From IMG/VR virus record IMGVR_UViG_3300042691_027374, positions 1-41,995 of that record: DNA of 41,995 nt; one strand, given 5' to 3'. The DNA is from a virus. Of the stretch, positions 12,656 to 41,024 are shown piece by piece. A program made the translations under genes and the position numbers. Each line of letters begins with the position of its first letter. Position 1 is the first letter of the stretch. The notes beneath the pieces are model-generated. The model did no database searches. It was not told where the DNA came from and was given only the letters and a program-made list of their open reading frames with translations.

Positions 12656-12665
12656 GGGAACCTAG
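12656..12665 (+). promoter_or_regulatory. Late motif GGGAACCTAG
   Basis: Plus orientation, 21 nt before the GTG at 12687, the only gene it can serve. Confidence 0.5.
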
Positions 12666-12674
12666 AAGGTTGCG

Positions 12675-12686
12675 CTAAGTATTCCC
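12675..12686 (-). promoter_or_regulatory. Late motif variant GGGAATACTTAG
   Basis: Minus orientation, 22 nt before the ATG at 12652. Together with the plus-strand copy it makes the inverted repeat ACGGGAA/TTCCCGT across the divergent gap. Confidence 0.4.
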
Positions 12687-12851
12687 GTGAGTGAACCTGT
12701 CATCAATCAGGTCACTACAAAGGATGGGATCAAGTGGCGGGTGTGTGGCCTTGGTTACTGCATTGAACACCAACAACGCTGGCAAGCTGAAGTGATGTTT
12801 GAGTGCATGATGGTGGCGAAAGGCTTAAGAAATGACAAGCCGGCAAACTAG
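12687..12851 (+). CDS. Small hypothetical protein, isolated plus-strand unit
   Basis: 54 aa from GTG 12687 (VSEPVINQVTTKDG...), with WRVCGLGYCIEHQQRWQAE in the centre. It has its own late-type motif upstream and a terminator 17 nt downstream, so it looks like a complete one-gene unit inserted at the convergence point of the two halves of the genome. No family recognised. Confidence 0.55.
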   Translation: MSEPVINQVTTKDGIKWRVCGLGYCIEHQQRWQAEVMFECMMVAKGLRNDKPAN

Positions 12852-12867
12852 GTCGGATGTTCAACTT

Positions 12868-12895
12868 GCCCCCGTGGTCATGCCGGGGGCTTTTT
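12868..12895 (+). terminator. Rho-independent terminator
   Basis: GCCCCCG (12868-12874), 9-nt loop, CGGGGGC (12884-12890), TTTTT. It ends rightward transcription. Confidence 0.85.
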
Positions 12896-13080
12896 CATGC
12901 CGCCTCCAGCGGTTCTGGATCATCTAGCTCACGGCTAAGCCAGAGGCGGGTTTGCTCCTCGTGATAGCTGAGGTAGGTGATGCCGTTGGCCATCGCCATC
13001 CACACCACCACGCCGGTGTCTTTGCGGTGGACCTTCCACAGGCCAGGTTGAATGCGCTGGCTGATGTTCACGTTCCTCAT
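12895..13080 (-). CDS. Small hypothetical protein after the endolysin
   Basis: 61 aa from the ATG at 13080 that overlaps the endolysin stop (ATGA). Aromatic, beta-rich (GLWKVHRKDTGVVVWMAMANGITYLSYHEE) with an acidic tail. It is the last gene of the leftward late transcript. Function unknown. Confidence 0.55.
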   Translation of the reverse strand: MRNVNISQRIQPGLWKVHRKDTGVVVWMAMANGITYLSYHEEQTRLWLSRELDDPEPLEAA

Positions 13081-14258
13081 GGCTCGGCGATGATGCACCA
13101 GCCGGAACGCGGCCCTTCCACCAGCCACCGTGGCCCCCAGTTCGCCTTGCTGTAGGGCAGCCCTGAACCTTTGCTGTTGAGGTAGGTGCCGCGCACCACG
13201 TCCATCTCGCCGAAGGGATCGTTGACGATGACGTGACCTTTGGTGATGCCGATCACGGTCAGCCAATGGCCGCCGCCAGTGGGCTTGGCGCTGGTGCCGT
13301 GATGCAGGAATCCGCAGGGGATCGGCACTGAACGTGCGATCTGCTGCTGCAGGTCATCCCAACCGGCGTCTTGCTTGAAGCGAGCCTTGATGCCGTAGTG
13401 CGCTAATGCCTTGAGCTGTGCATTCACGTCGGTGGTATCGCCAAAGCGCTGCACCGTCTTGAGGTATTGGTCGTCGGCCGCTGCGCCCGTAATCACACCC
13501 GGCCGCAGGAAGGAGACGAGCATGGCGCAACTGCTGGAGAAGCACATCCGGTTGGCCTGGCCCGCCACCGTGGAATCGCGTTGGCTGTAGTACGGCACCT
13601 TCAACGGTGTGTTGGGCTTCTGCTGTGCGGGCACGCCCAAACGCTGATCACCGCAGAACAGGGCCACCTCCGCAGCGCGACGCCGCTCTAGCCCAGCCAG
13701 CACGGCTTCCCCGGCATGCACCCAGCGCGGTAGTTCTTCCCGCACGACGGTGCAGGGGTCTTCCCCAGCCAGCAGCCGCTTGCGCAGCGTGGAATCCTCT
13801 AAAGCACCAAGGCCGAGGTTGTAGGCAAAGCTGATGATGGCCGCGACTTGATTGGGCTTCCACTGCTTGGCCATCGGCAGCAGGTGCAGCACGCCAGGGC
13901 CGAAGAGGTTCTCTACCTCGTTTTGCAGCAGCTCATCCGCTAGGGCCTGGCTGATCTTGTCGCCCATGCGCACCGGCGTATCCATCAGCCGTGTGGTGCC
14001 CCAACCGATGGTGGGCACACCAGCTGGGCAGCGGTAAGCCTCCAGCTTGCAGCCTTCAAACTCGCGGATGATCTTCAGAGCGGGAGCCAGCCAGGTCGGG
14101 GGCAGCGGTTGCTTGATCGCAGGATCAGCGCGATACAGCTCCGCGAACTGCCTGAGCGTGTCAGCGTCTAAGTGTTCCTGCAGCCAATCCCAAGCGGCAA
14201 GTTGATGAGGCAGCTGCTTGAAGTGCTTGGCCGCATCGCGCAGCTGAATGATGCTCAT
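13077..14258 (-). CDS. Modular endolysin: GH24 lysozyme plus C39-like peptidase domain
   Basis: 393 aa. Residues about 1-55 are a helical N-terminal extension. GH24 muramidase at about 58-205: E68, C77 and T83 have the spacing of the T4 lysozyme E-D-T triad with Cys in place of Asp, a substitution seen in other phage lysozymes. The C-terminal domain (about 220-393) looks like a C39-type papain-fold peptidase: VPYYSQRD, Cys239 in NRMCFSSSCAM, His331 in GGGHW and Asp347 in VNDPFG. It would cut both glycan and peptide bonds of the host wall. No signal peptide is visible, so release probably depends on the adjacent holin. Confidence 0.85.
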   Translation of the reverse strand: MSIIQLRDAAKHFKQLPHQLAAWDWLQEHLDADTLRQFAELYRADPAIKQPLPPTWLAPALKIIREFEGCKLEAYRCPAGVPTIGWGTTRLMDTPVRMGDKISQALADELLQNEVENLFGPGVLHLLPMAKQWKPNQVAAIISFAYNLGLGALEDSTLRKRLLAGEDPCTVVREELPRWVHAGEAVLAGLERRRAAEVALFCGDQRLGVPAQQKPNTPLKVPYYSQRDSTVAGQANRMCFSSSCAMLVSFLRPGVITGAAADDQYLKTVQRFGDTTDVNAQLKALAHYGIKARFKQDAGWDDLQQQIARSVPIPCGFLHHGTSAKPTGGGHWLTVIGITKGHVIVNDPFGEMDVVRGTYLNSKGSGLPYSKANWGPRWLVEGPRSGWCIIAEP

Positions 14259-14497
14259 ATCTTGGTCTCCAGCACAGCTAGGCGCTGTTCAATCGCGTTC
14301 AAGCGGGGGTATAGCTCTTGCCGGTCTTCCTTGATCTCTGTGCGCAGCAGGCTGACTTCACCAGCAATGTGCTCCACAGCGGCGGTCAGGCGGATCACAG
14401 CCTTTGAGGCTTCCTCGTCTTTGCGCATAAAGGAACCAACGCCGCCTGCCCCAATGGCAAGGACAGCACCTGCCAAAGCAGCGACGATTTCGACCAT
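14255..14497 (-). CDS. Lysis-cassette membrane protein with coiled coil (holin/spanin-like)
   Basis: 80 aa. N-terminal membrane segment IVAALAGAVLAIGAGGVGSF, then a charged heptad-like helix (EEVSLLRTEIKEDRQ type, ending IEQRLAVLETKI). This layout resembles XhlA- or Rz-like proteins that act with a holin. It overlaps the endolysin start by 4 nt. Confidence 0.65.
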   Translation of the reverse strand: MVEIVAALAGAVLAIGAGGVGSFMRKDEEASKAVIRLTAAVEHIAGEVSLLRTEIKEDRQELYPRLNAIEQRLAVLETKI

Positions 14498-14500
14498 GGC

Positions 14501-14674
14501 TCAGCGGCGCTTGCGCTTGTTGTTTTGCTCAACCTGAGCAGCGGCTGCGATACCCCGAAGGGCCGCGAGCACCAGCTGCACCCAACCGTTGGCCTTGACG
14601 CCAGGGATGTAGCTGAGCAGCTCGGAGCCAGCCAGTAAGGCAATGGCTAGGCCCGCAAGTTCCTCTGGCGTCAT
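14501..14674 (-). CDS. Small putative holin
   Basis: 57 aa: MTPEELAGLAIALLAG, then ELLSYIPGVKANGWVQLV and ALRGIAAAA, with a strongly basic C-terminus (NNKRKRR). One or two weak membrane helices plus a basic tail at the head of the lysis cassette suggest a holin. It starts 18 nt after a late motif that itself follows a terminator. Confidence 0.6.
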   Translation of the reverse strand: MTPEELAGLAIALLAGSELLSYIPGVKANGWVQLVLAALRGIAAAAQVEQNNKRKRR

Positions 14675-14692
14675 GGTGGCCGAGCAGTTGAT

Positions 14693-14702
14693 CTAAGTTG
14701 CC
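14693..14702 (-). promoter_or_regulatory. Late motif GGCAACTTAG of the lysis cassette
   Basis: Minus orientation, 18 nt before the ATG at 14674 and 3 nt after the T-tract of the terminator at 14706-14734. The lysis genes therefore appear to start transcription here. Confidence 0.6.
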
Positions 14703-14705
14703 CGG

Positions 14706-14734
14706 CAAAACAAAGGCCCCGCCGTAGCGGAGCC
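14706..14734 (-). terminator. Rho-independent terminator before the lysis cassette
   Basis: Minus strand GGCTCCGC-TACG-GCGGGGCC (one G-U pair) followed by TTTGTTTTG. Confidence 0.75.
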
Positions 14735-14786
14735 TTCAGCCCGTTGCCAAAGCAGAGCGGGAACACAACAAAAGTAGTCGGCGAGA

Positions 14787-15122
14787 CTAAGCAGCGGCAG
14801 GTGCTGCACTCCAGGGCAAGCCTTGGGCGACCTTTGGAGCACGCTGATCCTCGATTTGCTGCGAGAGGGCGGCCTGGATCTCTGCCACTTTCTCCTCGCC
14901 AAACTTGGCCTGCACCCAGCTCACTACCTCCGCCTCAGTGACGCTGGCAAACGGGATCATGTTGTCGGGATCGGCAGGGTCGAGGCCCAGGCTGCCGTAG
15001 GCCGAGCTGGCGTACACCTCGTCTTCACTGCGAGCGGCCACCGAATAGTGAACCGTCTGAATCTCTCCGGTTTGCGCCAGTCGTTCGAGCTGGTTAATGG
15101 TCCAGGTGTAGGTGTCAGCCAT
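14787..15122 (-). CDS. Hypothetical virion-region protein
   Basis: 111 aa starting MADTYTWTINQLERLAQ. EAEVVSWVQAKFGEEKVAEIQAALSQQIEDQR is a helical C-terminal half, and the tail is Pro/Ala. Proteins with this start occur near fibre genes in cyanophages as I recall, but no function is known to me. It precedes a terminator. Confidence 0.6.
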   Translation of the reverse strand: MADTYTWTINQLERLAQTGEIQTVHYSVAARSEDEVYASSAYGSLGLDPADPDNMIPFASVTEAEVVSWVQAKFGEEKVAEIQAALSQQIEDQRAPKVAQGLPWSAAPAAA

Positions 15123-15237
15123 GGGTGTAGTGGCAGTGCCTTAAGGCTAAGAGTGGTGCAACCTGTTGAACAGGCCGGTTGCCCGCCTTAGTGAAGGTGA
15201 CTACTCAGCATGGGGGTGAAATCGCCCCAGAAAGGGG
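15123..15237. other. Intergenic region with nested inverted repeats
   Basis: 115 bp. CCTGTT-G-AACAGG (15161-15173) is nested between GCAACC and GGTTGC. The minus strand reads GGGCAACCGG, a partial late motif, far from the ATG at 15122. Confidence 0.3.
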
Positions 15238-15411
15238 TTAGCCAAACTTGATTGCGCCACCAGTCATCTGGATCTTGACATCGCCGGTCATCTTGATGCT
15301 GCCGCCTTCCTTGGTCTCGACGGTGACGCCTTCAACCTGCTCAGCGACGTGCTTGACCAGTTCGGTCACGTCCTCTTTGTTGTCCTCAGCGTTGATTTCG
15401 TAGTGGGTCAT
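15238..15411 (-). CDS. Small hypothetical protein
   Basis: 57 aa: MTHYEINAEDNKEDVTELVK then KHVAEQVEGVTVETKEGG and short strands (SIKMTGDVKIQMTGGAIKFG). Acidic helix followed by a beta tail. It lies between the main fibre gene and the 111-aa gene. Function unknown. Confidence 0.6.
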   Translation of the reverse strand: MTHYEINAEDNKEDVTELVKHVAEQVEGVTVETKEGGSIKMTGDVKIQMTGGAIKFG

Positions 15412-15453
15412 GGTGGTATGGCGAGGGTGAGAAGAGAGTAGGACTGGTCTGCC

Positions 15454-17463
15454 TCAGCGAACTAACCATTCCTCAACGGAATCGCTGATGTCGCGCATCT
15501 TGATCCAGCGGCTGCCGGTGGGTTGACCTTTGCGGAGGCGGAGTTTGCCCATCAGACCCACGCAATCCCACTCGGGGCGTTCTTCGCGGGAGGTGTATTC
15601 CACGTCAGGGTCGTAAGCAGGGTTGAGCTTGCGGCGCTGTTGGATGACGGTGTTGCCGTCTTCATCCTCGACTTCGTAATCCTCTTGGATGTAGGTGCCG
15701 TAGTCATCGCGGAGGTACTTGCCGATCCATTTAGTTGAAGCAGCGTCACCAACCACGCTTGGATTGCCCGAAATAACACCGATTGGGTCGTCTCCAGAGA
15801 CGGCGTGGCGAATTTTATTGCCGTCAAGCACCACGCTGATACCACGGCGGTCTTCAGCGGTTGGATTGCTATCGTTCCACTCAAAGTATTCGGCGTAGTC
15901 AGCGCCGCCACCAATCCAAGATCCATCAGCTAATCCTACGCCATCTCCACGCAGCAAGAATTCATTGTCGCCACCACTTGAAGATTGACATGCAAGAAAA
16001 TACCATCCATTTCCAGCGGCAGCGCTGCTGTCAAAAGTGGCGAGCCTTGAGCTATATGTAGACGCTGTATTGTCTACAATAAAATGGTGGATATCACTGC
16101 TTGCTGAACTTGTTAACTGGCCATTGCTGGTGACGCGCAGACGTTCTGAAACACCATGAGGCAGTTGGTTTCCATTGACGACAGTATTAGCACCTTGAAA
16201 AATGATGTCGCCATTGGCGCCTGATCCAGTCCCAACCCCGCCGCGCAGTATCAAGTTTCTTCCGTTAACACTATTGCTGCCTGTTCCTGATGGCTGTGAA
16301 AAGCCTGTTACGAGTCCGTCAACTCCATCAGCACCAATTAAAAGTGTGCGTTCTGTGTAAGCTTGAACCCCGGTGCCACCTATAGAGACATTACCTGCAC
16401 TTGTAATTCTCATGCGCTCGCTGGGCGAGCTCGCCCCATCTGAGGTCGTGCTCAGGACGAGCCGGCCCGGCATGTCGTCGACGCCAGGGGTGCCGTCTAC
16501 AAAGACTTGAATTGATGCAGAAGTAGACACTAGGTCTGTGCCGTCTGCACCCGCAAATCTAATTACGCCTAAAGTCTGACCATTGGCAACAAGAGTGTTA
16601 CTTCCAACGGAAGAGCCGCCTGTAGATGCCAAAGAAAGCGTCCCGCCAGATGTATTGTTAGCTACAATTCCAACTATTGTATGCAGTGCAGATTCATATA
16701 GAGATAAAGGTGCTGTAATTGATCCGACACTGCGGCTCGTAGACGTGCCAACTAACAACCTGCCGGAGCTGTCGATGCGGGCATATTCATTAGCAGCGTT
16801 AAGGCCAAAGACTGTCGGGCGTCCAAATATATTTAGCGTGTTGTCGGCGCCACCAGTAGATGCTGCAACAATTTCGGCTTGTCCACTTGCGTTATGACCT
16901 AAAGTCAAGAATCTTGATGAACCAGAAAGCTCGCCTTCAATCCGCACACTGCCAGTAGTAGATCCGGCATCAATATGCAATAAATAAGCAGGACTTGTAG
17001 TGCCAATCGCTAGTCTGTTATTGGTAGCGTCATAGAACACACCGCCGCTATCAATGTTGATGTCGCCATCAGCTTCGATGTTGATGCGCTGAACACCATT
17101 AGTCGAGATGGCTACGTTGTTGCTGGAAGGTAGATAAACCCCGTTCGTGGGTACGCTGCTGCCACTTGGGATCAGTGCTGCGGCTGTTGCGGTGCCGGTG
17201 GTGGTGAGGTTCTGGCTCCCGAAGTTAGGGCTGATCTTCGTGCCGGCAATCGCGGCGCTCGCGTTCACGTCCGCGTTGACGATGGTGCCATCAACGATGG
17301 CGGCCGAAGGCGCATAAGCCAGGCTGTCCCAAGCCGTGCTGCCGTCGCCGTACTTGATCTTGCCGGTGTCAGTTTCGTAGCCCGGCTCACCCTGCGTCAG
17401 GGTTGGGTTGGTGCTGGCCCAGTTGGCTGCCGTGTCACGGCGCAGTTGGATGCGGACAGACAT
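15454..17463 (-). CDS. Tail fibre/spike with C-terminal intramolecular chaperone-like domain
   Basis: 669 aa. The N-terminus (MSVRIQLRRDTAANWAST) is the virion-attachment type found in many phage fibres. The centre (about 110-500) is beta-rich and Gly/Ser/Asn-rich, with lower GC than the ends. The C-terminal about 150 residues (GADYAEYFEWNDSNP, GISVVLDGNKI, DDPIGVISGNPSVVGDA) match the Peptidase_G2/IMC self-cleaving chaperone type that trimerises and then releases the mature fibre. It overlaps the preceding short fibre gene at the start codon. The AT-richer middle suggests replacement of a receptor-binding module. Confidence 0.8.
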   Translation of the reverse strand: MSVRIQLRRDTAANWASTNPTLTQGEPGYETDTGKIKYGDGSTAWDSLAYAPSAAIVDGTIVNADVNASAAIAGTKISPNFGSQNLTTTGTATAAALIPSGSSVPTNGVYLPSSNNVAISTNGVQRINIEADGDINIDSGGVFYDATNNRLAIGTTSPAYLLHIDAGSTTGSVRIEGELSGSSRFLTLGHNASGQAEIVAASTGGADNTLNIFGRPTVFGLNAANEYARIDSSGRLLVGTSTSRSVGSITAPLSLYESALHTIVGIVANNTSGGTLSLASTGGSSVGSNTLVANGQTLGVIRFAGADGTDLVSTSASIQVFVDGTPGVDDMPGRLVLSTTSDGASSPSERMRITSAGNVSIGGTGVQAYTERTLLIGADGVDGLVTGFSQPSGTGSNSVNGRNLILRGGVGTGSGANGDIIFQGANTVVNGNQLPHGVSERLRVTSNGQLTSSASSDIHHFIVDNTASTYSSRLATFDSSAAAGNGWYFLACQSSSGGDNEFLLRGDGVGLADGSWIGGGADYAEYFEWNDSNPTAEDRRGISVVLDGNKIRHAVSGDDPIGVISGNPSVVGDAASTKWIGKYLRDDYGTYIQEDYEVEDEDGNTVIQQRRKLNPAYDPDVEYTSREERPEWDCVGLMGKLRLRKGQPTGSRWIKMRDISDSVEEWLVR

Positions 17464-17714
17464 TACGCAGCACCTCCATCAAGAGCAGTGAGTTCGCCAA
17501 CCGTGAAAACGCTTGATGCGCTGCCACCGTCGAGTTCGTTGAGTGTTCCGCTACCACCACCGGACAACTCCACGACGCTCGCGGTGCCGTTGTCCTTTTT
17601 GGTGTAGAGCTTGCCGTCGTAGGTGTTGAGCGCTAGCTCGCCCAGCTGCAAATCTGCTACAGCAGGAACTTTGCCTGCGACGGCTGAGCGCCGAAGCTTG
17701 ATTGTGTTCGCCAT
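17463..17714 (-). CDS. Short fibre-related protein
   Basis: 83 aa. MANTIKLRRSAVAGKVP...LQLGELALNTYDGKLYTKK is the same attachment-type N-terminus as in the neighbouring fibres, without a long shaft. It may be a cut-down fibre or an adaptor. It shares the MANTI(K/R)(L/I)(R/K)RS start with the 275-aa fibre. Confidence 0.7.
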   Translation of the reverse strand: MANTIKLRRSAVAGKVPAVADLQLGELALNTYDGKLYTKKDNGTASVVELSGGGSGTLNELDGGSASSVFTVGELTALDGGAA

Positions 17715-17748
17715 GTGGCGTCCGTGGGTGGCTATCTAGCCGGACGCA

Positions 17749-17758
17749 CTAAGTTGCC
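17749..17758 (-). promoter_or_regulatory. Late motif GGCAACTTAG
   Basis: 34 nt before the ATG at 17714, further than at most copies; GGCTAG follows at 17732-17737. Confidence 0.4.
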
Positions 17759-17765
17759 GGCCAGC

Positions 17766-18593
17766 TCAATAGCTGCCGCCATCCAAGGTGATGCCATCAA
17801 TCGTGCCGCCGGTAATGGCCACGTTGTTGGCGTTCTGAGTGCTCATCGTGCCCAGACCGCTGATGTCAGTGTTGGGGATCGTGGCCGACGCGGTGAGGGC
17901 GCTGGTGCCAGAGCCTTTGACGTAGCCGGTCAGCGTTGCGGCGCCGGTGCCGCCGTACTGCACGCCAATGGTGCTGGCGTTCCACACACCACTGGTGAGG
18001 GTGCCAACAGAGGTGAGGCTGGAGCCGGTAACACCGCTGCCGAGCGTGCTGCCGCTCAGCACGTTGGCGCCGTTGATGCGATAGACCTTGCCGCTGGCTA
18101 GATCAATGTCTTCGCTGGAAGTCCAGCTGTCGGTGGCATTGATCCAGTTGAAAGTCTTGTCGGTTGCACCCTTGAGGGTGATGCCACCACCATCGGCTGT
18201 GGAGTCCGTGGGCGAGGCCACGTCGCCCAGGATGATGTTCTTGTCGTCAACGGCGAGCGTGGTGCTGTTGATCGTGGTGGTGGTGCCGTTGACGGTCAGG
18301 TCACCACCGACGACCACGTTGCCGGTCGTGGTGAAGGCGCCAATGGTCGCCGCGCTTAGATCAACAGTGCCGGTGAAGGTCTTGTTGCCGCTGATCGTCT
18401 GAGCGGTGTCCAGCGTGACGAACGCACCGGCGCCACCGATCTTGATGATGCTCGTCGCGCTGCCACCTGCCCCGCCAGTGCCGGTGCCGTAGTGCAGGAC
18501 AGCGTTGCCCTCGCTAAAGGCAAGCTCCGCATTGGCCAGGCTCGTCGGTGCGCTGCTGCCCGTCGAACGCTTAATGCGGATGGTGTTGGCCAC
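17766..18593 (-). CDS. Tail fibre protein
   Basis: 275 aa from GTG 18593. The N-terminus MANTIRIKRSTGSSAPTSL is of attachment type. The remainder is Thr/Gly/Asn-rich beta repeats (TTGNVVVGGDLTVNG, STTLAVDDKNIILGD, SVGTLTSGVWNAS) typical of phage fibre shafts. Probably part of the host-recognition apparatus together with the genes at 15454-17714. Confidence 0.75.
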   Translation of the reverse strand: MANTIRIKRSTGSSAPTSLANAELAFSEGNAVLHYGTGTGGAGGSATSIIKIGGAGAFVTLDTAQTISGNKTFTGTVDLSAATIGAFTTTGNVVVGGDLTVNGTTTTINSTTLAVDDKNIILGDVASPTDSTADGGGITLKGATDKTFNWINATDSWTSSEDIDLASGKVYRINGANVLSGSTLGSGVTGSSLTSVGTLTSGVWNASTIGVQYGGTGAATLTGYVKGSGTSALTASATIPNTDISGLGTMSTQNANNVAITGGTIDGITLDGGSY

Positions 18594-18620
18594 GGTTACC
18601 GGCGAGACACTGCGTTGCAG

Positions 18621-18630
18621 CTAGGTTTCC
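18621..18630 (-). promoter_or_regulatory. Late motif GGAAACCTAG
   Basis: 27 nt before the GTG at 18593, immediately after the upstream stop; shares flank TGACCGGAAACC with the copy at 19271. Confidence 0.4.
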
Positions 18631-18632
18631 GG

Positions 18633-18920
18633 TCAGAAATTCCCGCCGTCCGTCAGTGTGATGACCGTGTTGATGTCATCGCCTTTCCAAGTGCTGGTGG
18701 TGGCGTCGTAGTACAAGACGCTGCCGGTGACTTTGGCGGTGTCGTTGACGTTCGCCAGGTCGCCGAGGTTCAGCACTTCACTAATGGGCGGGCCTTGTGG
18801 GCCAGCGGTTTGCACCTCCACCAGCAGCGGCTGGGCTGCCGTGGTGAGTTCAATCGCCTGCTCGGCTATTTCAGTGACGACCACCTGGCCGGTGCTGATC
18901 ACCTTAACGGTGTTGGCCAT
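18633..18920 (-). CDS. Small fibre/tail-associated protein
   Basis: 95 aa: MANTVKVISTGQVVVTEIAEQ, a short collagen-like GPQGPP, then SVLYYDATTSTWKGDDIN. The collagen-like triplet and final segment resemble linkers in phage fibre proteins. It sits in the fibre cluster with 2 nt to its upstream neighbour. Confidence 0.6.
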   Translation of the reverse strand: MANTVKVISTGQVVVTEIAEQAIELTTAAQPLLVEVQTAGPQGPPISEVLNLGDLANVNDTAKVTGSVLYYDATTSTWKGDDINTVITLTDGGNF

Positions 18921-18922
18921 AG

Positions 18923-19267
18923 TCAGCTCGGTGCGGTGTAGCCCTCAGAGGGGCGCACGATGCCTTCGAGGTAATACTCCCGCAGACCGTTGCTGTCGAT
19001 CAGCATCACGTCGTACCGGCATTCTTCCGGGAGGGTTGCCGTGACGGTGTACGGCAGCGTGAGCTTTACCGAGCCAGTGCTGGCATTCAGCGTCGTCACC
19101 GTGAAGTCGCCGTACTTGGTCACGCGATCCTTGCTCCACACCTGCGCCAGCACCGTCCAGCCGGTGATGTTGATGCCGTCGCCATCCGAATCCTTGAACT
19201 GCACCTGCAGCGGATAATCCGCCCGCCGCTGGGGCCGGATGTTGTAGCTCGCCGGGGTGATCGCCAT
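18923..19267 (-). CDS. Tail/fibre-region protein, beta-sandwich type
   Basis: 114 aa from ATG 19267 (MAITPASYNIRPQRRADY). Beta-rich (YPLQVQFKDSDGDGINITGWT, YDVMLIDSNGLREYYLEG), like small baseplate or fibre-adaptor proteins of siphophages. The frame also allows a TTG at 19273. A late motif ends 3 nt before the ATG. Confidence 0.6.
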   Translation of the reverse strand: MAITPASYNIRPQRRADYPLQVQFKDSDGDGINITGWTVLAQVWSKDRVTKYGDFTVTTLNASTGSVKLTLPYTVTATLPEECRYDVMLIDSNGLREYYLEGIVRPSEGYTAPS

Positions 19268-19270
19268 ACC

Positions 19271-19280
19271 CAAGGTTTCC
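19271..19280 (-). promoter_or_regulatory. Late motif variant GGAAACCTTG
   Basis: Minus orientation directly after the upstream stop (TGACC), only 3 nt before the ATG at 19267. Confidence 0.35.
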
Positions 19281-19287
19281 GGTCAGC

Positions 19288-19686
19288 TCAACCCGCGTAG
19301 GTGTCGGGGTTGGTTGTGATGTCCACGCGCATCTGCGATCTCGGCCCCACACCACGGGGCACGTTGATCGTCACCGCGTTGCTGCCGGGGTAGCTCCAGA
19401 GCAGGCGGCCGGCCACTTCCTGCAGGCTGGCATCGCCGCTCCAATCCACCAGATATAGCGTCCAGCGGTTGAAGGCTTGCTCCTTGCTGTATTGCCGCAC
19501 CGGCACCAGCTCAGGCTCGCGCACGATCACCACCTCCAAGCCCGTGACGGTGGTGCCAGGCGGCAGGCTCTCACCCGGTGCCCGCACCGAGATGGCCGGG
19601 GTGGTGGCGCTATTGGCGAGGGTGTACGTGCCGAGCTGATCCACCAGCGTGGTCTCGATGGCGGTGCGCAGGCTCAGCAAGTCCAT
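19288..19686 (-). CDS. Tail protein, unknown (possible tail-completion type)
   Basis: 132 aa: MDLLSLRTAIETTLVDQLGT helix, then strands (LEVVIVREPELVPVRQY, FNRWTLYLVDWSGD), and NVPRGVGPRSQMRVDITT. The layout resembles small tail-terminator/completion proteins. It follows the frameshifted gene by 3 nt. Confidence 0.5.
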   Translation of the reverse strand: MDLLSLRTAIETTLVDQLGTYTLANSATTPAISVRAPGESLPPGTTVTGLEVVIVREPELVPVRQYSKEQAFNRWTLYLVDWSGDASLQEVAGRLLWSYPGSNAVTINVPRGVGPRSQMRVDITTNPDTYAG

Positions 19687-19689
19687 TAC

Positions 19690-20337
19690 CTAGTCTTCCG
19701 CCGAAAGGAGCAAGCAGCCTGCCTCGATCCAGCCGAAGCCGGGGCGAGCTGGGACTAGCAGCCGGTGCGTCAACAGTGGCCGATCCAGATCGCGCAGCAG
19801 GACCGTGCCGCTGATCTGCCCACGAACGAGCACCAATCCGCCACGGATGCCGGTCGCTTCCCACACCGGCGCCAACACCCACACCGCCTCATCGTCGGAA
19901 TGCAGCGCCCGCACCTCGGGCATTCGCGTGCCGTCTGCTGCGCTGGCCAGCACCTCGTTCCAACAGGACACCAATAGGGGCGGTGCCTTGTCGTCGTGCT
20001 TGAGCGCCAGGGCAACTGCAGCCACCTCGGCGCTGAGACGTCGCTCGGCCTTCTGCTCGCTGGCGAACAGCTGGAAGTCCTGCAGCGAGAAGGGTTTGCC
20101 CTTCTTGGGGTCGCGGTTGATGTTGGCTAGGAGCGCTGCGAGTTGGGCCACCGGCATCTCCTGCAGTTGCGCTTGCTCGCGGCGAATTCGCTGCAGCTCA
20201 CGCCATGCCTGCAGCACCGTTTGCCGCAGTTCCCTCGCGTAGGTGGTGCGGTGGAACTGGCCGGGGTAGCTGTGCGCTAGGTCGTAGAAGATCGCTTGCC
20301 AGTCCGTTTCGCTGCGGCGCCATCCGCCGCTGGCGGC
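19690..20337 (-). CDS. -1 frame extension of the frameshifted tail gene (gpT-like part)
   Basis: 215 codons of open frame without a normal start near its 5' end. The frame opens only three codons before the slippery GGGAAAG, after a TGA. It encodes TDWQAIFYDLAHSYPGQFHR..., then a charged helix (LQRIRREQAQLQEM) and a globular C-terminus. A GTG at 20217 could also start it alone. Read through a -1 slip it would make a 390-aa fusion with the 194-aa protein, as gpGT does in lambda. WQAIFYDL...YPG and KGKPFSLQDFQLF look like tail-assembly chaperone sequence. Confidence 0.65.
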   Translation of the reverse strand, partial: AASGGWRRSETDWQAIFYDLAHSYPGQFHRTTYARELRQTVLQAWRELQRIRREQAQLQEMPVAQLAALLANINRDPKKGKPFSLQDFQLFASEQKAERRLSAEVAAVALALKHDDKAPPLLVSCWNEVLASAADGTRMPEVRALHSDDEAVWVLAPVWEATGIRGGLVLVRGQISGTVLLRDLDRPLLTHRLLVPARPGFGWIEAGCLLLSAED

Positions 20338-20861
20338 TTTCCCAGCTCCTCCTCAGTCGGTGGCTCACTGGGCATGGCTTCCGCGTCGGATTCTTCCTGC
20401 GCCAGTTGCCAGATCGCATTGAACAAGGCGCGGTGCATCTGGCGGGTGTCGGCGATGCTCCACTCCGGCAGGTTGCAGCGGCAGCGGATCAAGGCCGTGA
20501 CCGTGGATTCCATGTTGCGCTGCCCTGCAGCGGCGTACACCTGCGCCACCTCTTGGATCAAGGCCGCGTGCTTCGTGCGGATCTCTTCGGCCCGCTCCTC
20601 CAGTTGGCGGCCGCTGATCGCACCTTCAATGATGTTTAACGCCTCGGAAATGCTGATCGCTTCGGCCTTGGCAATGGCATCGGCGATCTGGGCGCCTTTG
20701 ACGAAGCTGCTCTGCTCATTAGCCAGCAGCTCAGAGATCACGGCCGACTCCCCAACGGTGAGGCCGCCAAGTACCGGCATCTCCAGAATGCCGCTGGCGG
20801 GTGTGCCAAGTCGCCGGGTCGTGGGTGCCTCGGGCGCCTGGACAAAGGGAAGCGTCGGCAT
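20277..20861 (-). CDS. Tail-assembly chaperone-like protein (gpG-like, frameshift donor)
   Basis: 194 aa. The N-terminal 25 residues are Pro/Thr-rich; the core is helical (VGESAVISELLANEQ, RNMESTVTALIRCRCNLPEWSIADTRQM, LFNAIWQLAQEESDA). Slippage at 20337-20343 (codons G174-K175) adds the -1 frame domain; without it translation stops 19 codons later. In lambda the short and long forms chaperone the tape measure. Here the pair lies far downstream of the tape-measure gene, an unusual order. Confidence 0.65.
   Translation of the reverse strand: MPTLPFVQAPEAPTTRRLGTPASGILEMPVLGGLTVGESAVISELLANEQSSFVKGAQIADAIAKAEAISISEALNIIEGAISGRQLEERAEEIRTKHAALIQEVAQVYAAAGQRNMESTVTALIRCRCNLPEWSIADTRQMHRALFNAIWQLAQEESDAEAMPSEPPTEEELGKPPAADGAAAKRTGKRSSTT
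20337..20343 (-). other. Programmed -1 ribosomal frameshift site GGGAAAG
   Basis: Minus strand heptamer G-GGA-AAG in the 0 frame (X-XXY-YYZ), identical to the slippery heptamer of the lambda G-T genes. The -1 frame opens just before it and runs 648 nt. Confidence 0.7.
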
Positions 20862-20874
20862 ACGGGTTGGCTAC

Positions 20875-20994
20875 TTACTTAGAGGTTATTGCCTTGTTGA
20901 TGAGACGTTGCTCTTTTTCCTTGCGTAGCAGGGCCTGGCGGTTTGCGGTCTGCACCTGCTTGGCGCGGATTAGTAGCAGGCGTTGGTCGTTCAT
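20875..20994 (-). CDS. 39-aa coiled-coil peptide resembling its neighbour's N-terminus
   Basis: MNDQRLLLIRAKQVQTANRQ then ALLRKEKEQRLINKAITSK. AKQVQTANRQALLRKEKEQR lines up with ARQVQQANREAQLQRERDAR near the N-terminus of the adjacent 505-aa protein. ATG overlaps that gene's stop. Could be a small partner that co-assembles with the larger protein. Confidence 0.55.
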   Translation of the reverse strand: MNDQRLLLIRAKQVQTANRQALLRKEKEQRLINKAITSK

Positions 20995-22508
20995 GGCTTG
21001 AGATCAGCAGCGGTAAAGCCAAGTGCCGTCAGCTTGGTGCGGCACAAAGTAGGGTCATCCCAGTCCCAGCCGAATACAACTTCAAAGTCGTTCACACCAT
21101 TGAGTGCGACGTTATAGCGTCGGGCGCTGGTAAAGCTGGAAGCCGAAATAGCCGTATCAATATCTTCAGGAGCTGTGGTGCTCACATCAAATCCAACCGT
21201 TTCCTCTTCGACACAGCTGGAGCTGTTAACGCAGGGGGCTAGGTACTTACGAGGCGCGTTAGCAAAGTAGTTCTGACGCATCCAGGCATACGTCTGTGCT
21301 GTAGCTGAAGTCAAATTCATGGCAGGCCCCAAAAAGCGGTATACAGCGGGAGTGAAGTAGTTGCCGTCGTGGGTTTCTTCATTTAGACGCCCTAGGCCGA
21401 ATTGCTGGGCAAGCACGTCGTTACGTGCTGGGTAGTTGCCGTGCAGTTTGCTTTCGGCGTGAACGGTGTAGTCAAAGCTGGGTACATCGGTATAGCCGTA
21501 TGTCACTGGGCCGTTGTAATTACTGGGTTCGCTGGAGGAACCTGCCACGTCAGCGTACTCAAAGCGGGTGTAAAGCGAGGAGGTGAGCACTTCTTGGGTG
21601 CTGTTTACCGCTAGCGGCGGATGCAAGGCGCGAATCGCGGTGTCTAATGCTTCAGGAACGTCTAGCTGGCGCACGTTGGAGGTGTCAACGTAGAAAGCAA
21701 AAATCTCGTAACGCTGGCGTTGCTCGGTGTTGTAAACCGTCTCCCGTACATCAAAGATGCTTTCCCGGTCGTAATAGGTGCCAGCTTGGCCACCGCACCC
21801 AGAGCTGGTGACTCGTGGATTTGTTGATGTGCGGTCCACACGACTTGTCCTTTCATACACCGTCAGCAGCCGCAGCTTGCTGTAGACATAGACAAAGATG
21901 CAGGCTTTCTGGCCGATGGGAAGCAGGTAAAAGTCGGAGTCGTCGTAGTCCTGGCTGGTGACCCGTGGGATAACAGAATCCGTCCATGACATGGTGGGCG
22001 GTGTTCCGGGGCCAGTTTGGAAGGTATAGCCACAGGGGTACTCCGACGTGTAGTTATTGCCGAAGAAATTAGGTGTAGCTGAGTAGGTAACAAAGCCCAG
22101 TACAGATTCAGATCCGCTGCTGGTATCGGAAGGAGTTGGCTGATTGGTGGCTGCAGCACCACTGGGTTCTAGCGTGTCCACCACAACCTTCTGTGCCAGC
22201 CCTGGAATACCGACCGTCAGACGGAACGTGCTTGCCGGCACGGCCGAAATGATCTGGGTGGTGTACTGCACGCCCATCGTGCTACCGACTGCTTTGCGTT
22301 GAGCAGCAGGGCGCCGCTCAACGCCGGTATCGGGGTTGCCGCCATTGGGCGGCTGCAGCGTTGTCGGCTGCCCTTCAGCCGTGGCAGTCGCTGTTGTGCG
22401 TGCGTCACGCTCGCGCTGCAGTTGTGCCTCACGATTGGCCTGTTGTACCTGACGCGCACTGGCCAGCAACGCATCACTGCTGCTGGTGACCGTGATGCGG
22501 GTGCTCAT
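20991..22508 (-). CDS. Large tail/virion protein, unknown family
   Basis: 505 aa. Residues about 12-60 are a charged helix followed by a Thr/Gln/Pro linker. About 85-505 is an aromatic, Tyr/Ser/Thr-rich beta-type region (FGNNYTSEYPCGYTFQ, DYDDSDFYLLPIGQKACIFVYVYSKL) with several cysteines (SSGCGG, APCVNSSSCVEE). Lower GC than neighbours. Probably a tail-tip or receptor-binding protein from its place between hub and fibres. Confidence 0.6.
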   Translation of the reverse strand: MSTRITVTSSSDALLASARQVQQANREAQLQRERDARTTATATAEGQPTTLQPPNGGNPDTGVERRPAAQRKAVGSTMGVQYTTQIISAVPASTFRLTVGIPGLAQKVVVDTLEPSGAAATNQPTPSDTSSGSESVLGFVTYSATPNFFGNNYTSEYPCGYTFQTGPGTPPTMSWTDSVIPRVTSQDYDDSDFYLLPIGQKACIFVYVYSKLRLLTVYERTSRVDRTSTNPRVTSSGCGGQAGTYYDRESIFDVRETVYNTEQRQRYEIFAFYVDTSNVRQLDVPEALDTAIRALHPPLAVNSTQEVLTSSLYTRFEYADVAGSSSEPSNYNGPVTYGYTDVPSFDYTVHAESKLHGNYPARNDVLAQQFGLGRLNEETHDGNYFTPAVYRFLGPAMNLTSATAQTYAWMRQNYFANAPRKYLAPCVNSSSCVEEETVGFDVSTTAPEDIDTAISASSFTSARRYNVALNGVNDFEVVFGWDWDDPTLCRTKLTALGFTAADLKP

Positions 22509-23359: not shown

Positions 23360-23369
23360 CTAGGTTGCC
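23360..23369 (-). promoter_or_regulatory. Late motif GGCAACCTAG
   Basis: Minus orientation, 18 nt before the ATG at 23341, after the stop of the hub gene. Confidence 0.55.
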
Positions 23370-29573: not shown

Positions 29574-29583
29574 TTAGGTTGCC
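29574..29583 (-). promoter_or_regulatory. Late motif GGCAACCTAA, leftward
   Basis: 20 nt before the tape-measure GTG. It forms an inverted pair with the copy at 29594-29603 in the 53-bp divergent gap. Confidence 0.6.
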
Positions 29584-29593: not shown

Positions 29594-29603
29594 GGGAACC
29601 TAG
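29594..29603 (+). promoter_or_regulatory. Late motif GGGAACCTAG, rightward
   Basis: Plus orientation, ends 3 nt before the ATG at 29607. If it is a promoter the transcript would be nearly leaderless, or the true start lies downstream. Confidence 0.5.
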
Positions 29604-31011: not shown

Positions 31012-31021
31012 CTAACTTGCC
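31012..31021 (-). promoter_or_regulatory. Late motif GGCAAGTTAG of the tail tube gene
   Basis: Minus orientation, 23 nt before the ATG at 30988. Its TAG is the stop codon of the sigma-like gene. Confidence 0.55.
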
Positions 31022-31590
31022 GCTAAACGATCTTCTTCAGCTTCCAGCACCTCCCACGGTGTAGGCCGAGGGCAAACGTGCAGATCAAAGCCCTTCACGT
31101 CATGGGCGACCCCAGCGGTGGCCAGCAGCGCATCCTTCAGCTCGGTCTTCGTGCAGCTCAGCTCCTTGCACACCGCTAGCGAGGTCCAGCCAAGGGCCAT
31201 GAGCTTCCTAGCGCTATTGCCCAAGAGACGCGCTTTGTGCGTGGCCTTGATTGTCCAGTTGCTCCCCCGCAGGAAGTGCAGGCACTCGCCTTGGGCAAAC
31301 GTCCAGAAGATGGTGCTGAGCTTCCCGCGTTCCGGGTCATGCGCACGGCACGCCTTGAGAAAGGCAATGTCCACGCAGGAGAAGATGTCTTCGGTGGCCA
31401 TGCAGTGCCGATACTTGCGGCACAGCTTCCCGCCGAACATGCGGATCAGGCCAATGTTCTCGGCATACATCCGACCAAAGCGCCGCTGCTCTTCTCTGGT
31501 GAACGGCTTGGCGAGATGATGCTCAACGCGCTTTTTCTCCGGTTCAGCCGGAGTGCTGAAGAATGAAAGTTGGCCTTCAGCGATGCGCAT
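31012..31590 (-). CDS. Second sigma-like protein inside the late operon
   Basis: 192 aa. YAENIGLIRMFGGKLCRKYRH (about 43-63) parallels sigma region 2.1, MATEDIFSCVDIAFLKACRAHDPERGKLS (about 65-93) parallels 2.2, and TIFWTFAQGECLHFLR (about 94-109) parallels 2.3-2.4. An HTH-like segment (GWTSLAVCKELSCTKTELKDAL, about 133-154) could be region 4. It is smaller and far more diverged than the factor at 11575-12489. Located between head and tail genes with a late motif before it, it could amplify late transcription. The sigma assignment is by pattern and needs structure or profile support. Confidence 0.6.
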   Translation of the reverse strand: MRIAEGQLSFFSTPAEPEKKRVEHHLAKPFTREEQRRFGRMYAENIGLIRMFGGKLCRKYRHCMATEDIFSCVDIAFLKACRAHDPERGKLSTIFWTFAQGECLHFLRGSNWTIKATHKARLLGNSARKLMALGWTSLAVCKELSCTKTELKDALLATAGVAHDVKGFDLHVCPRPTPWEVLEAEEDRLAAS

Positions 31591-31599
31591 ACATGCAGT

Positions 31600-31609
31600 C
31601 TAACTTCGC
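31600..31609 (-). promoter_or_regulatory. Late motif variant GCGAAGTTAG
   Basis: Minus orientation, 9 nt before the ATG of the sigma-like gene; its TAG is the stop of the connector gene. Confidence 0.4.
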
Positions 31610-32157
31610 AAGACTTGGACAGCCCCAACAGAAGATGATGCCTTGCTTAAGCACAGACAACCGAGCACCTGCTTGAGGTGTGGCACGACGTTCAAAGCGT
31701 TCTTGCTTTCGGCTTGCTGCACGCTGTTGAACTCCACATCAATCACATCAACGCGGGCACGCTTGAGGTTGGCATTGGGGATGCCAGGGATCAGCTCAGT
31801 GCTGCCAGCGCCGGCAACGGTCAGCAGGGTGCTGTCACCGAGTAGAGCCTCAGCCAGATCAAAGGTGGCTTGCTTGATCGGCTGCGGGATCTCGCTGGTG
31901 GTGAAGCTCCAATCACCGCAGGCTGCATCACTCCGGGGCCAGGCCAGCGCTTGGGTGGTGGAGGCCTTCTCGCCGATGTAGCGCAGCTCATCGAGGTAGC
32001 GGGTCGCCATGATCAGCGCCCGCCCTTTGTTATCGGTGCTGGCTGAAGTCCAATTCAGAGTGCCGAGGTAGAGATTGGCGAGATCATCACCAGTGGCCAC
32101 GCTGATGTAGCTATTGGCCGAAGCCGATCCAGCAGTGGCAACAACAGTGACGGTCAT
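31600..32157 (-). CDS. Head-tail connector protein (DnaT-like fold type)
   Basis: 185 aa. SANSYISVATGDDLANLYL, GRALIMATRYLDELRYIGEK and LAWPRSDAACG match the phage connector family that databases call DnaT-like (a Tyr-rich start, AL.ATRYLD and a WPR motif). It joins portal and tail. Gene order (after the gp7-like gene and before the tail tube) agrees. Confidence 0.7.
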   Translation of the reverse strand: MTVTVVATAGSASANSYISVATGDDLANLYLGTLNWTSASTDNKGRALIMATRYLDELRYIGEKASTTQALAWPRSDAACGDWSFTTSEIPQPIKQATFDLAEALLGDSTLLTVAGAGSTELIPGIPNANLKRARVDVIDVEFNSVQQAESKNALNVVPHLKQVLGCLCLSKASSSVGAVQVLRS

Positions 32158-32175: not shown

Positions 32176-32185
32176 CTAACTTGCC
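32176..32185 (-). promoter_or_regulatory. Late motif GGCAAGTTAG
   Basis: Minus orientation, 18 nt before the ATG at 32157; its TAG is the stop codon of the gp7-like gene. Confidence 0.55.
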
Positions 32186-37106: not shown

Positions 37107-37547
37107 TCACTTGCGACGACGACGGGAAGGGGCTTTGCCACCGCCATAGGCTGCGGCCTTGGCATCAAGAGCGGCATTGCGAGCACTGGCTTTGTTGGCC
37201 ATTGCAGAACCTTTGGCGCGGCCAGCAGCTCGGGCAGCCGCCACTCCAGAGGATGCCGACTTTTTACCTTTACCGCTCAGGTTATTGCTGACGCGAGTTA
37301 GGCCGGACTTTGCACCGCCAGCCTGACGATTCCAGAACGCTTTTTCCTTAGCAGAAGACTTGGGATTGCTGGCAACGTTGCTGGCCATCTTGGTCAGCTC
37401 ACGAGCCTTGCCGCTGGCTTCTTTGTATTTAGCGCGTGCGCTTTCGTTCTTCGCGCTTTTACCCAGCTTCCCGCCACCGCCACCACCACCACCGCCGCCG
37501 CCACCAGCGAAACGACCGTTTTTGTCACGCTTGTAGGAACGGGCCAT
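37107..37547 (-). CDS. Basic Ala/Gly/Lys-rich protein with a poly-glycine run
   Basis: 146 aa. MARSYKRDKNGRFAG, then a run of about a dozen glycines encoded by GGC/GGT repeats, then Lys/Ala/Ser-rich sequence ending PSRRRRK. Highly basic, no recognised fold; the N-terminus RDKNGRFAGGG is seen in small basic phage proteins near portals. It may bind DNA or be a disordered head component. The glycine codon run could vary in length between isolates. Confidence 0.6.
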   Translation of the reverse strand: MARSYKRDKNGRFAGGGGGGGGGGGGKLGKSAKNESARAKYKEASGKARELTKMASNVASNPKSSAKEKAFWNRQAGGAKSGLTRVSNNLSGKGKKSASSGVAAARAAGRAKGSAMANKASARNAALDAKAAAYGGGKAPSRRRRK

Positions 37548-37567: not shown

Positions 37568-37577
37568 CTAGGTTTCC
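37568..37577 (-). promoter_or_regulatory. Late motif GGAAACCTAG
   Basis: Minus orientation, 20 nt before the ATG at 37547. Confidence 0.5.
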
Positions 37578-37583: not shown

Positions 37584-37769
37584 TTACGGAGCGGCTAAAG
37601 CTTTCCTGACGGCATAACGGGAGAGATTGAGGCGGCTGGCGATCTTGGTCTGGCTCAGGCCTGCAGTGTGCAGACGGCGGATGCGCTGCTGCTGGGACTC
37701 AGTAGCCCAGAGCAGGAGGATGAGCGGGAAGAGCAGGATCACCGCCACCCACGCGAGGGTGGTTGTCAT
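37584..37769 (-). CDS. Membrane-anchored helix-turn-helix miniprotein
   Basis: 61 aa. LAWVAVILLFPLILLLWA (about 5-22) is a membrane helix. The rest, QQRIRRLHTAGLSQTKIASR followed by LNLSRYAVRKAL (about 27-57), is a resolvase/Hin-type HTH. An HTH tied to the membrane in so small a protein is unusual; it could tether DNA or regulate from the membrane. It lies between terminase and the poly-Gly gene and has a possible CTAG-type promoter. Confidence 0.65.
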   Translation of the reverse strand: MTTTLAWVAVILLFPLILLLWATESQQQRIRRLHTAGLSQTKIASRLNLSRYAVRKALAAP

Positions 37770-39164: not shown

Positions 39165-39484
39165 GAGCAGAGCTGCGCGAGTTTGGCAGCGGTGTTGATG
39201 GCACCAAGAGCGATGTGATATTGGCCAGCGCGACGTGCCTCCAGTTGCAGGGTGGAGCACTGAGAGAGCAGGTCGGCAATCATCTGGGGGCGTTCGATGT
39301 CCCAGTCAGCCTTCATCTGGTCCCGCGCCATGCGCAGGTATTTGTCACAGGTGTCTTCTGTGACCCCCCAGTTTTCCTTGGCATAGCGGATGCAGTCCGA
39401 CCTACGGCCACCGGTAGCGATGATCCGCGCAAAGCGTTGAGCGCGGAGTTCGGTTTCAGCCTTAGTGGTGCCTTTGGCTGCCAT
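39161..39484 (-). CDS. terS: Terminase small subunit
   Basis: 107 aa. Basic N-terminus, then an HTH (SDCIRYAKENWGVTEDTCDKYLRMA, about 35-59) that would recognise the packaging site, and a helical C-terminal oligomerisation part. Overlaps terL by 4 nt and starts on the stop of the methyltransferase gene (TAATG). Confidence 0.78.
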   Translation of the reverse strand: MAAKGTTKAETELRAQRFARIIATGGRRSDCIRYAKENWGVTEDTCDKYLRMARDQMKADWDIERPQMIADLLSQCSTLQLEARRAGQYHIALGAINTAAKLAQLCS

Positions 39485-40671
39485 TAGAAGGCCTCCTGCG
39501 GCTCCGGGGTGAAGTGGGCGTTGGAGGGTTGGCAGATGGCGGTGTTGCCGGTGAAGTCTTCCCAGCGCTTGACGATCACGTCGCAGTAGGCGGGATCGAG
39601 TTCCATCATGCGGCAGTGGCGGGAGGTCTTCTCGCAGGCAATAAGAGTGGTGCCTGAGCCGCCGTAAAGGTCAACAACGAGATTACCTAGTTTGGAGTCT
39701 TTCTCAATAGCCCTGACTGGGAGTTCGCAGGGCTTTTGAGTCGGATGGGCTTTTAGGTGTTCATCGGTCATATGGATGCGACGAACGAACCAGAGTTCTT
39801 TCTTGGCTTTAGGGAAACGCCAGCAGACTTCAAAAGAGGAGCCGTAGACCTTGTTTTCGTCTTCAGAGTGAGCTTTAGCCCAGATGAGGGTTGAGCCTTG
39901 CTCCCAGAGCGGAATGGACTTGCAGAAATAATCAGCGCCCCAGATGTACCAGACAGGAGCTGGGAGGAGCTTCATCATCGCTCCTGCATCAAAAGGCTTG
40001 TCGTCGTCGTGAACCTGCTTGTACGTCTTGGTTGACGTACCCATTTTTGAATAATCGGTATCGAGGTTCATCCCATATGGCGGGTCAGTGAACACCATGT
40101 CCGCCTTCTGCCCATCCATGAGGCGTTCGATGTGCTGGATGTTGGTGGAGTCGCCGCAGAGGAGGCGATGATTGCCGAGGATCCAAAGGTCGCCAGGTTT
40201 GGTGATCGGGTCTTCAGGTGCCTCAGGCACCTCATCAGGGTCGGTATTGCCTTCGACGGGCTCTAGCTGCTCCGCTTCCTGCAGCAGGGCATCCAAGTCT
40301 TCCTGCTCAAACCACGGGGCTATGTCGTGCTCTTCACTGAGCTGCTGCAGCATCTCGGCATCCCAGTCAGAGAGTTCAGCAGCGCGGTTGTCGGCCAGGG
40401 CTAGGCCTACCTTGTCGTCTTCGGATAGGCCAGAGCGGCGAACGGCAATGATCTCGTCGCCTGCGGCTTCAACCACCTTGAGCTTCGTTAGCCCTAGTGC
40501 CTTGGCACCTTCGATGGTGCCGTTACCGGCTAGGATGCGGTTCTCTTCGTCGATGACGATGGAGCGTGCGGCACCGTAGCGCTGCAGGGATTCTTGTATT
40601 AGGCGTGCAGAACTATCAGTGCGCTTGCGTGCATTCTTATGGTCGAACTTTAGGTCTGAGATATTTGCCAT
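39484..40671 (-). CDS. ParB-like domain fused to a DNA methyltransferase
   Basis: 395 aa. Residues about 1-110 are a ParB/sulfiredoxin-type N-terminal domain (ILAGNGTIEGAKALGLTKLKVV; GLSEDDKVGLALADNRAAEL). From about 160 a beta-order N6-adenine/N4-cytosine methyltransferase: GDLWILGNHRLLCGDS, DPPYG (196-200), HPTQKP (309-314) and DLYGGSGTT (334-342, SAM binding). It would methylate phage DNA, probably against host restriction. Next to terminase in many phages; target sequence unknown. Confidence 0.88.
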   Translation of the reverse strand: MANISDLKFDHKNARKRTDSSARLIQESLQRYGAARSIVIDEENRILAGNGTIEGAKALGLTKLKVVEAAGDEIIAVRRSGLSEDDKVGLALADNRAAELSDWDAEMLQQLSEEHDIAPWFEQEDLDALLQEAEQLEPVEGNTDPDEVPEAPEDPITKPGDLWILGNHRLLCGDSTNIQHIERLMDGQKADMVFTDPPYGMNLDTDYSKMGTSTKTYKQVHDDDKPFDAGAMMKLLPAPVWYIWGADYFCKSIPLWEQGSTLIWAKAHSEDENKVYGSSFEVCWRFPKAKKELWFVRRIHMTDEHLKAHPTQKPCELPVRAIEKDSKLGNLVVDLYGGSGTTLIACEKTSRHCRMMELDPAYCDVIVKRWEDFTGNTAICQPSNAHFTPEPQEAF

Positions 40672-40680
40672 GGCCGGAGT

Positions 40681-40995
40681 TTAACCGGGGGAGGGCATGA
40701 AAAGCGTGCCATCGGAGGCTAGGACGTTCAGGCGGAGTTCCGCGTCGTCGACGCCGTAGGCCCAGATGGTGCCCATGCGGGGGATGGTTTCAGGCTCGAT
40801 GGTGAAGAGGAAGAGGTAGTTGCCTTCGGGGTTGTCTTGTGAGGAGGAGGGGAGGTAGAGGCCGGTGAGGCGGAAGGTGGCGAGGAGTTGTCGAGCGATG
40901 TATTCAGCTTCAGCCATGGTGGAGTCGTCATTGAAGACAAGGCCGAATGGTTCGCCGGTGTAGGGGTATTCAGCGACAACGGACCACGGTTCCAT
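40681..40995 (-). CDS. Hypothetical protein
   Basis: 104 aa from the ATG at 40995 (MEPWSVVAEYPYTGEPFGLV). The frame is open to 41154 but that part lies inside the RusA-like gene. Tyr/Pro/Glu-rich, single compact domain (AEAEYIARQLLATFRLTGLYL). A late motif lies 19 nt upstream, which supports this start. Function unknown. Confidence 0.6.
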   Translation of the reverse strand: MEPWSVVAEYPYTGEPFGLVFNDDSTMAEAEYIARQLLATFRLTGLYLPSSSQDNPEGNYLFLFTIEPETIPRMGTIWAYGVDDAELRLNVLASDGTLFMPSPG

Positions 40996-41014
40996 GGTGC
41001 CAAGGCTGGCTAGC

Positions 41015-41024
41015 TTAAGTTGCC
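41015..41024 (-). promoter_or_regulatory. Late motif GGCAACTTAA
   Basis: Minus orientation, 19 nt before the ATG at 40995; its TAA is the stop of the RusA-like gene. It is the most upstream copy in the late region. Confidence 0.5.

Follow-up and report, generated by a model that had tools for sequence, protein, structure and literature searches.

A candidate late promoter element and a small sigma factor as its most likely reader in a probable cyanosiphovirus

The 42-kb virus record IMGVR_UViG_3300042691_027374 (41,995 nt; "the window" denotes this whole stretch of DNA) carries a short motif, GGVAASYTAR, upstream of its late genes. The motif is real, and about 12 real sites are present rather than the 14 or so copies of GGNAA(C/G)(C/T)TAG counted in a preliminary description made from the sequence alone. 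It is probable that the element represents a complete late promoter core lacking a -35 box, read by the host RNA polymerase together with a small phage-encoded sigma factor. A promoter for a phage-modified RNA polymerase had already been proposed, and the proposal is supported by a terminator, a divergent pair of elements, the spacing to start codons and a link to the sigma gene. Judged from its genes, the phage is probably a temperate cyanosiphovirus with a presumed cyanobacterial host: it encodes a serine integrase, a portal protein with 54% identity to that of cyanophage KBS-S-2A, and a full-length sigma factor with 40% identity to RpsD4 of Synechococcus phage S-CBS3.

Copies of the motif in the window and in related phages

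Early genes occupy approximately 1-12.6 kb of the window, and the remainder consists of late genes for head, tail and lysis, most of them encoded on the minus strand. The exact pattern GGNAASYTAG occurs nine times (12656 and 29594 on the plus strand; 14693, 17749, 18621, 23360, 31012, 32176 and 37568 on the minus strand), compared with a mean of 0.8 and a maximum of 4 in 100 shuffles; two more copies, 29574 and 41015, are gained if A is permitted at position 10. All supported copies stand in the sense of the gene they precede, as had been described, and the early region below 12656 holds none. A scan allowing one mismatch returned 21 matches against 21.3 expected by chance, and weaker copies were therefore judged individually by their conservation in relatives. 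The window was also scanned with a profile built from the relatives' sites after removal of those identical to window sites. Ten real sites headed the resulting list, nine of them scoring at least 14 where 0.2 were expected. A match at 33822 (score 12.9) lies within the capsid gene without a downstream start and was ascribed to chance. A home-made expectation-maximization (EM) motif finder recovered the motif de novo in the relative G003; no clear motif was returned from KBS-S-2A, S-CBS1, S-CBS3, S-CRES1 or P-SS2.

Loci of relatives were fetched by small sigma and by capsid (120 loci), and a second round added 85 more. It had been suggested that failure to find the motif conserved at matching junctions of related phages would refute the promoter reading; the comparison was run, and the motif is conserved there. 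GGVAASYTAR stands before orthologous late genes of relatives with proteins only 40-60% identical. In aligned junctions, nearly all sigma-positive relatives carry it upstream of the genes for adaptor, major tail protein and tape measure and of the 29607-type gene, and eight near-complete relatives carry it before many further late genes. The upstream gene ends within the element in some relatives and before it in others. The motif is conserved wherever the upstream stop lies, and its conservation is therefore not due to coding.

Two of the copies first counted were not retained. The copy at 31600..31609 (minus strand, GCGAAGTTAG) coincides with the C-terminal Leu-Arg-Ser-stop codons of the adaptor gene; relatives vary between CGA, CGG and CGC before AGT TAG, synonymous codons of Arg-Ser-stop, so this copy is explained by coding. 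The copy at 12675..12684 (minus strand, GAATACTTAG) is too divergent in sequence, with altered conserved positions, and falls outside the top 30 profile matches. Inverted pairs had been described in two divergent gaps: the one at 29554-29606 is a true back-to-back pair, whereas 12653-12686 contains only one supported element.

Anatomy of the proposed promoter and individual sites

Anatomy was computed on 120 distinct site clusters. T never occurs at position 3, where C, A and G are all found. Upstream information is limited to weak preferences close to the element, and the -35 region, taken as 10-35 nt upstream of the motif, holds at most 0.09 bits of relative entropy per position. Canonical sigma-70 promoters (TTGACA/TATAAT) gave 1 match in 12000-31999 against 5.7 expected; sigma-70 boxes had earlier been described as not visible in the divergent gaps. 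Counted from the motif start, positions 14-17, which lie downstream of the element, are enriched in A. The distance from element to start codon is bimodal, being either exactly 3 nt or mostly 16-24 nt, with few values between. The adaptor gene shows both spacings (18 in the window and most relatives, 3 in loci L239-L241), and the two arrangements therefore replace each other. A spacing of 3 places the predicted +1 on the A of ATG. The elements in the tape measure gap stand back to back, separated by anything from a few bases to about a dozen, so that separate -35 boxes would fit only inside the other gene's leader.

We applied the extended -10 numbering of standard sigma-70 promoters. With A14 or A15 as +1, the invariant A4 would fall at about -11, T8 at about -7 and G1G2 in the extended -10 position. 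The proposed element would thus read G-14 G-13 V-12 A-11 A-10 S-9 Y-8 T-7 A-6 R-5, with transcription predicted to start at an adenine 14-15 nt from the first G, 4-5 nt downstream of the 10-mer. The bimodal spacing together with the fixed downstream A fits a promoter with a fixed start; an element 3 nt from the AUG would produce a leaderless mRNA and one at 16-24 nt a short leader.

Several sites lie around the head-tail adaptor and tail genes. The element at 32176..32185 (minus strand, GGCAAGTTAG), conserved in dozens of loci, stands 18 nt before the head-tail adaptor gene and heads a unit in which the adaptor is the first gene and the small sigma gene follows. The same sequence at 31012..31021 (minus strand) precedes the major tail protein gene by 23 nt and contains a TAG that also serves as stop codon for the small sigma gene; relatives with that stop elsewhere retain the element. 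In the tape measure gap, 29574..29583 (minus strand, GGCAACCTAA; profile score 17.8; conserved in relatives) lies 20 nt upstream of the tape measure gene, which starts with GTG at 29553. Back to back with it, 29594..29603 (plus strand, GGGAACCTAG) stands 3 nt before the ATG of open reading frame (ORF) 29607-30002. Its transcript is predicted to be leaderless, and relatives with as little as about 45% protein identity keep the spacing of 3. A variant at 19271..19280 (minus strand, GGAAACCTTG) also lies 3 nt before an ATG (ORF 18923-19267; predicted leaderless), a spacing kept in G001, G002, G003, G004 and G006. As had been noted, one copy (14693..14702, minus strand, GGCAACTTAG) directly follows a terminator before the lysis cassette. 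It stands 18 nt from ORF 14501-14674, is conserved in G001, G003, G004 and G007, and has an intrinsic terminator hairpin and T-tract (14707..14736, minus strand) directly upstream; the fold of 14698-14745 is -26.2 kcal/mol (z -3.1).

At the remaining sites, the highest profile score in the window (21.8) belongs to 23360..23369 (minus strand, GGCAACCTAG), 18 nt before ORF 22919-23341 and conserved in the same five relatives as the 19271 variant; the element at 41015..41024 (minus strand, GGCAACTTAA; score 13.8), 19 nt before the ATG of ORF 40681-40995, is likewise conserved in these five. The element at 37568..37577 (minus strand, GGAAACCTAG) lies 20 nt before ORF 37107-37547 and is conserved in G001 and G002. 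On the plus strand, 12656..12665 (again GGGAACCTAG) precedes the GTG of ORF 12687-12851 by 21 nt and is conserved at the same ORF in G001, G002, G004 and G006, with a weaker profile score of 9.0. Nine copies had been placed 18-23 nt before start codons; eight are found there (18, 18, 18, 19, 20, 20, 21 and 23 nt), and others lie at 3 nt (29594), 27 nt (18621) and 34 nt (17749). The spacing of 27 nt between 18621..18630 (minus strand, again GGAAACCTAG) and ORF 17766-18593 is shared by G001, G004 and G006. The element at 17749..17758 (minus strand, again GGCAACTTAG), upstream of ORF 17463-17714, is conserved in G001, G004, G006 and G007.

The leaders of these last two genes contain conserved sequences of their own. 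A hairpin, GCGTCC-GGCTAGATAGCC-...-GGACGC, follows the promoter in the leader 17715-17748; the inner GGCTAGATAGCC is invariant in the four relatives, and the hairpin is possibly a translational control element. In the leader 18594-18620, GCAACGCAGTGTCTCG follows the promoter and is conserved in three relatives.

Motif copies that are always sense-oriented and near start codons, with conserved hairpins in some leaders, could also be RNA-level signals upstream of late genes, such as a translation enhancer or a processing or start-site mark. We consider this very unlikely. A promoter is favored because a copy follows the terminator directly and a back-to-back pair occupies a divergent gap, because the downstream A keeps a fixed distance whereas the AUG lies at either 3 or 16-24 nt, and because the element is without a -35 partner and enriched only in phages encoding the small sigma. 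Furthermore, the other tested motif junctions fold no more strongly than shuffles beyond z -1.6.

Another explanation is that a repressor or a different DNA-binding protein recognizes the motif, which would then overlap with ordinary promoters. The inverted pair in the divergent gap would suit such a site, as would inverted half-copies of the element seen in one clade upstream of the adaptor gene. The copies are, however, mostly single, asymmetric and strictly oriented, and the low number of sigma-70-type matches given above leaves them without accompanying ordinary promoters in excess. This is the most improbable of the alternatives considered. The half-copies themselves (AAGTTGCC, loci L170-L188) lie just upstream of the sense element and could represent an antisense promoter, a dyad, or what is left of a divergent gene.

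The small sigma factor as candidate reader

The most likely reader of the promoter element is a small sigma factor of 192 aa (31012-31590, minus strand), encoded between the adaptor and major tail protein genes, downstream of the 32176 promoter. It matches PHROG sigma families (E 4e-9 and 3e-6), and a profile built from 41 relatives can be aligned with regions 2-3 of both SigB and FliA. The predicted fold comprises a sigma-2 domain, a three-helix bundle that is probably sigma-3-like, and one C-terminal helix; no region 4 was detected by Pfam. Sigma factors dominate the PDB matches in a fold search, and the SigE N-terminal domain superposes on the model at 1.9-2.4 A. Sigma-2 homology, lack of region 4 and a single-element promoter are thus all found here, as in phage late sigmas of the gp55/gp36 kind. 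No gene for a T7-type single-subunit RNA polymerase was found among 40 window proteins in a PHROGs scan, several short ORFs being outside that scan.

The motif co-occurs with the small sigma gene. In sigma-positive loci (n=42; 554,650 bases), there were 172 copies in sense and 18 in antisense orientation against approximately 16 expected, and every one of the 42 loci has at least two sense copies. Capsid relatives without the gene (n=28 loci; 288,402 bases) contain 10 sense and 5 antisense copies, a chance-level count with again approximately 16 expected; their GC content is 0.45 vs 0.60, which the shuffle-based expectation allows for. Sense copies were present in 83 of the 85 small-sigma loci of the second fetch, among them loci whose capsids share only 30-34% identity with that of the window. 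Two short loci encoding the most diverged small sigmas (L214 and L215, 57-58%) are without the motif pattern, and in L215 GGAAAACTAG replaces the motif before the tail protein gene; sigma-element co-evolution could account for the deviation.

The promoter could instead be read by the full-length, group-2-like phage sigma (11575-12489, plus strand; regions 1.2, 2, 3 and 4), with the small sigma serving, for example, as a co-activator or anti-sigma. The full-length sigma is encoded in all 9 near-complete motif-bearing relatives examined. Full-length sigmas also go without motif enrichment in G012, S-CBS1, S-CBS3 and KBS-S-2A, however, the last three, which have only this sigma, containing 0, 0 and 3 copies, at or below the control. 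A sigma with region 4 would also be expected to use a -35 box, and none is conserved. We therefore regard the full-length sigma as an unlikely reader.

Several results weigh against the small sigma and its promoter, in addition to the shared presence of the full-length sigma. The EM motif finder returned no clear motif from the window set. The Pfam region 2 match of the small sigma (E 0.0012) lies under the cut-off, and its structural model is moderately confident (mean predicted local distance difference test, pLDDT, 73.5; predicted template modelling score, pTM, 0.52), with no Foldseek match below E 0.001. The link between sigma and motif also follows one clade: on the capsid tree a single transition was not rejected (approximately unbiased test, p-AU 0.558), and the contrast may reflect a single gain or loss. 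Independent replication of the link on this tree was tested and not established.

If the small sigma is the reader, host (probably cyanobacterial) RNA polymerase would bind it, the sigma-2 domain would read the -10 part of the element and the sigma-3-like domain the GG. Lying in the unit behind the 32176 promoter, the sigma gene would amplify its own expression. The switch may be set off by the full-length sigma, whose gene stands at the early region's end.

Several further features of the window and its relatives were observed. A 61-aa protein (37584-37769, minus strand) combines an N-terminal hydrophobic helix with weak matches to helix-turn-helix families, HTH_7 being the best and sigma region 4 one of the others; one may speculate that it is a membrane-tethered DNA-binding protein or a region-4 partner of the small sigma. 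The adaptor-sigma-tail protein block is retained across sigma-positive loci with capsids from 30% to 100% identical, which suggests that head modules have been exchanged around a conserved regulatory block. A 48-bp segment (16735-16782) shares 98% identity with tail fiber genes from the Synechococcus phages S-CBP4 and S-CBP3, possibly through exchange between phages sharing a host range. A scan of genome contigs for relatives gave a single match, a 3.3-kb contig (L129) binned as a Rhodoferax metagenome-assembled genome; it carries a small-sigma relative with the motif after its sigma gene and is probably a misbinned phage fragment. A plasmid search with the capsid query returned distant capsids only. 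The IMG/VR record G005 (106,734 bases) resembles the window phage only at approximately 70-100 kb; its first part has a GC content of 0.48-0.51 and other phage-like genes, and the record may be a chimera joining a window-type phage to a different phage.

Relation to known late promoters and biological meaning

Sigma factors reduced around sigma-2 and serving single-element late promoters have precedents in phiEco32 gp36 and T4 gp55 (PMC8948821, PMC7892883). At middle/late promoters of phiEco32 gp36, transcription starts 6-8 bp downstream (PMC8948821), whereas here 4-5 nt are predicted; the element also differs, tAATGTAtA in phiEco32 and the more GC-rich GGVAASYTAR here. Unlike phiEco32, the window phage has its small sigma within a late operon, a predicted leaderless class and a second full-length sigma. 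The T4 late promoter resembles the one proposed here in having only a -10-like element and a diverged sigma-2 sigma with an extra helical part (PMC7892883, PMC2988020). That part is a helix-loop-helix in gp55 and apparently a sigma-3-like domain in the small sigma, and the T4 late element TATAAATA does not match the window consensus. T4 further uses the co-activator gp33 and the sliding clamp gp45.

Among cyanosiphoviruses, P-SS2 and S-CRES1 each encode two sigma factors, with distant similarity to the small sigma described here. In P-SS2 these are a group 2 sigma and, beside terminase, a small group 3 sigma expected to serve a special regulon; the available part of that report assigns no motif to the small sigma (PMC2784084). 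The first 40 kb of P-SS2 and of S-CRES1 show no enrichment of GGVAASYTAR. The kind of system is known from T4 gp55 and phiEco32 gp36, but the sequence, the sigma family and the leaderless class appear to be new. A bolder and more doubtful proposal is that of a separate phage sigma family, in which sigma-2 and sigma-3 would be followed by a conserved C-terminal Pro-Trp-Glu helix replacing region 4. Such sigmas might use a GC-richer extended element in place of a TATAAT-like -10, dispense with -35 box, clamp and co-activator, and produce leaderless or short-leader mRNAs from one promoter.

The two sigmas of P-SS2 were reported in 2009 (PMC2784084), and in the literature found no late promoter had been assigned for a cyanosiphovirus. 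What is proposed here for these phages is the combination of a sequence, a gene for its reader and start sites predicted to one or two bases. The system would be a further example of phages reducing the promoter to one element, and it would allow one to test whether specificity can come from region 3 instead of region 4. If the interpretation is true, particle building would be switched on through this element.
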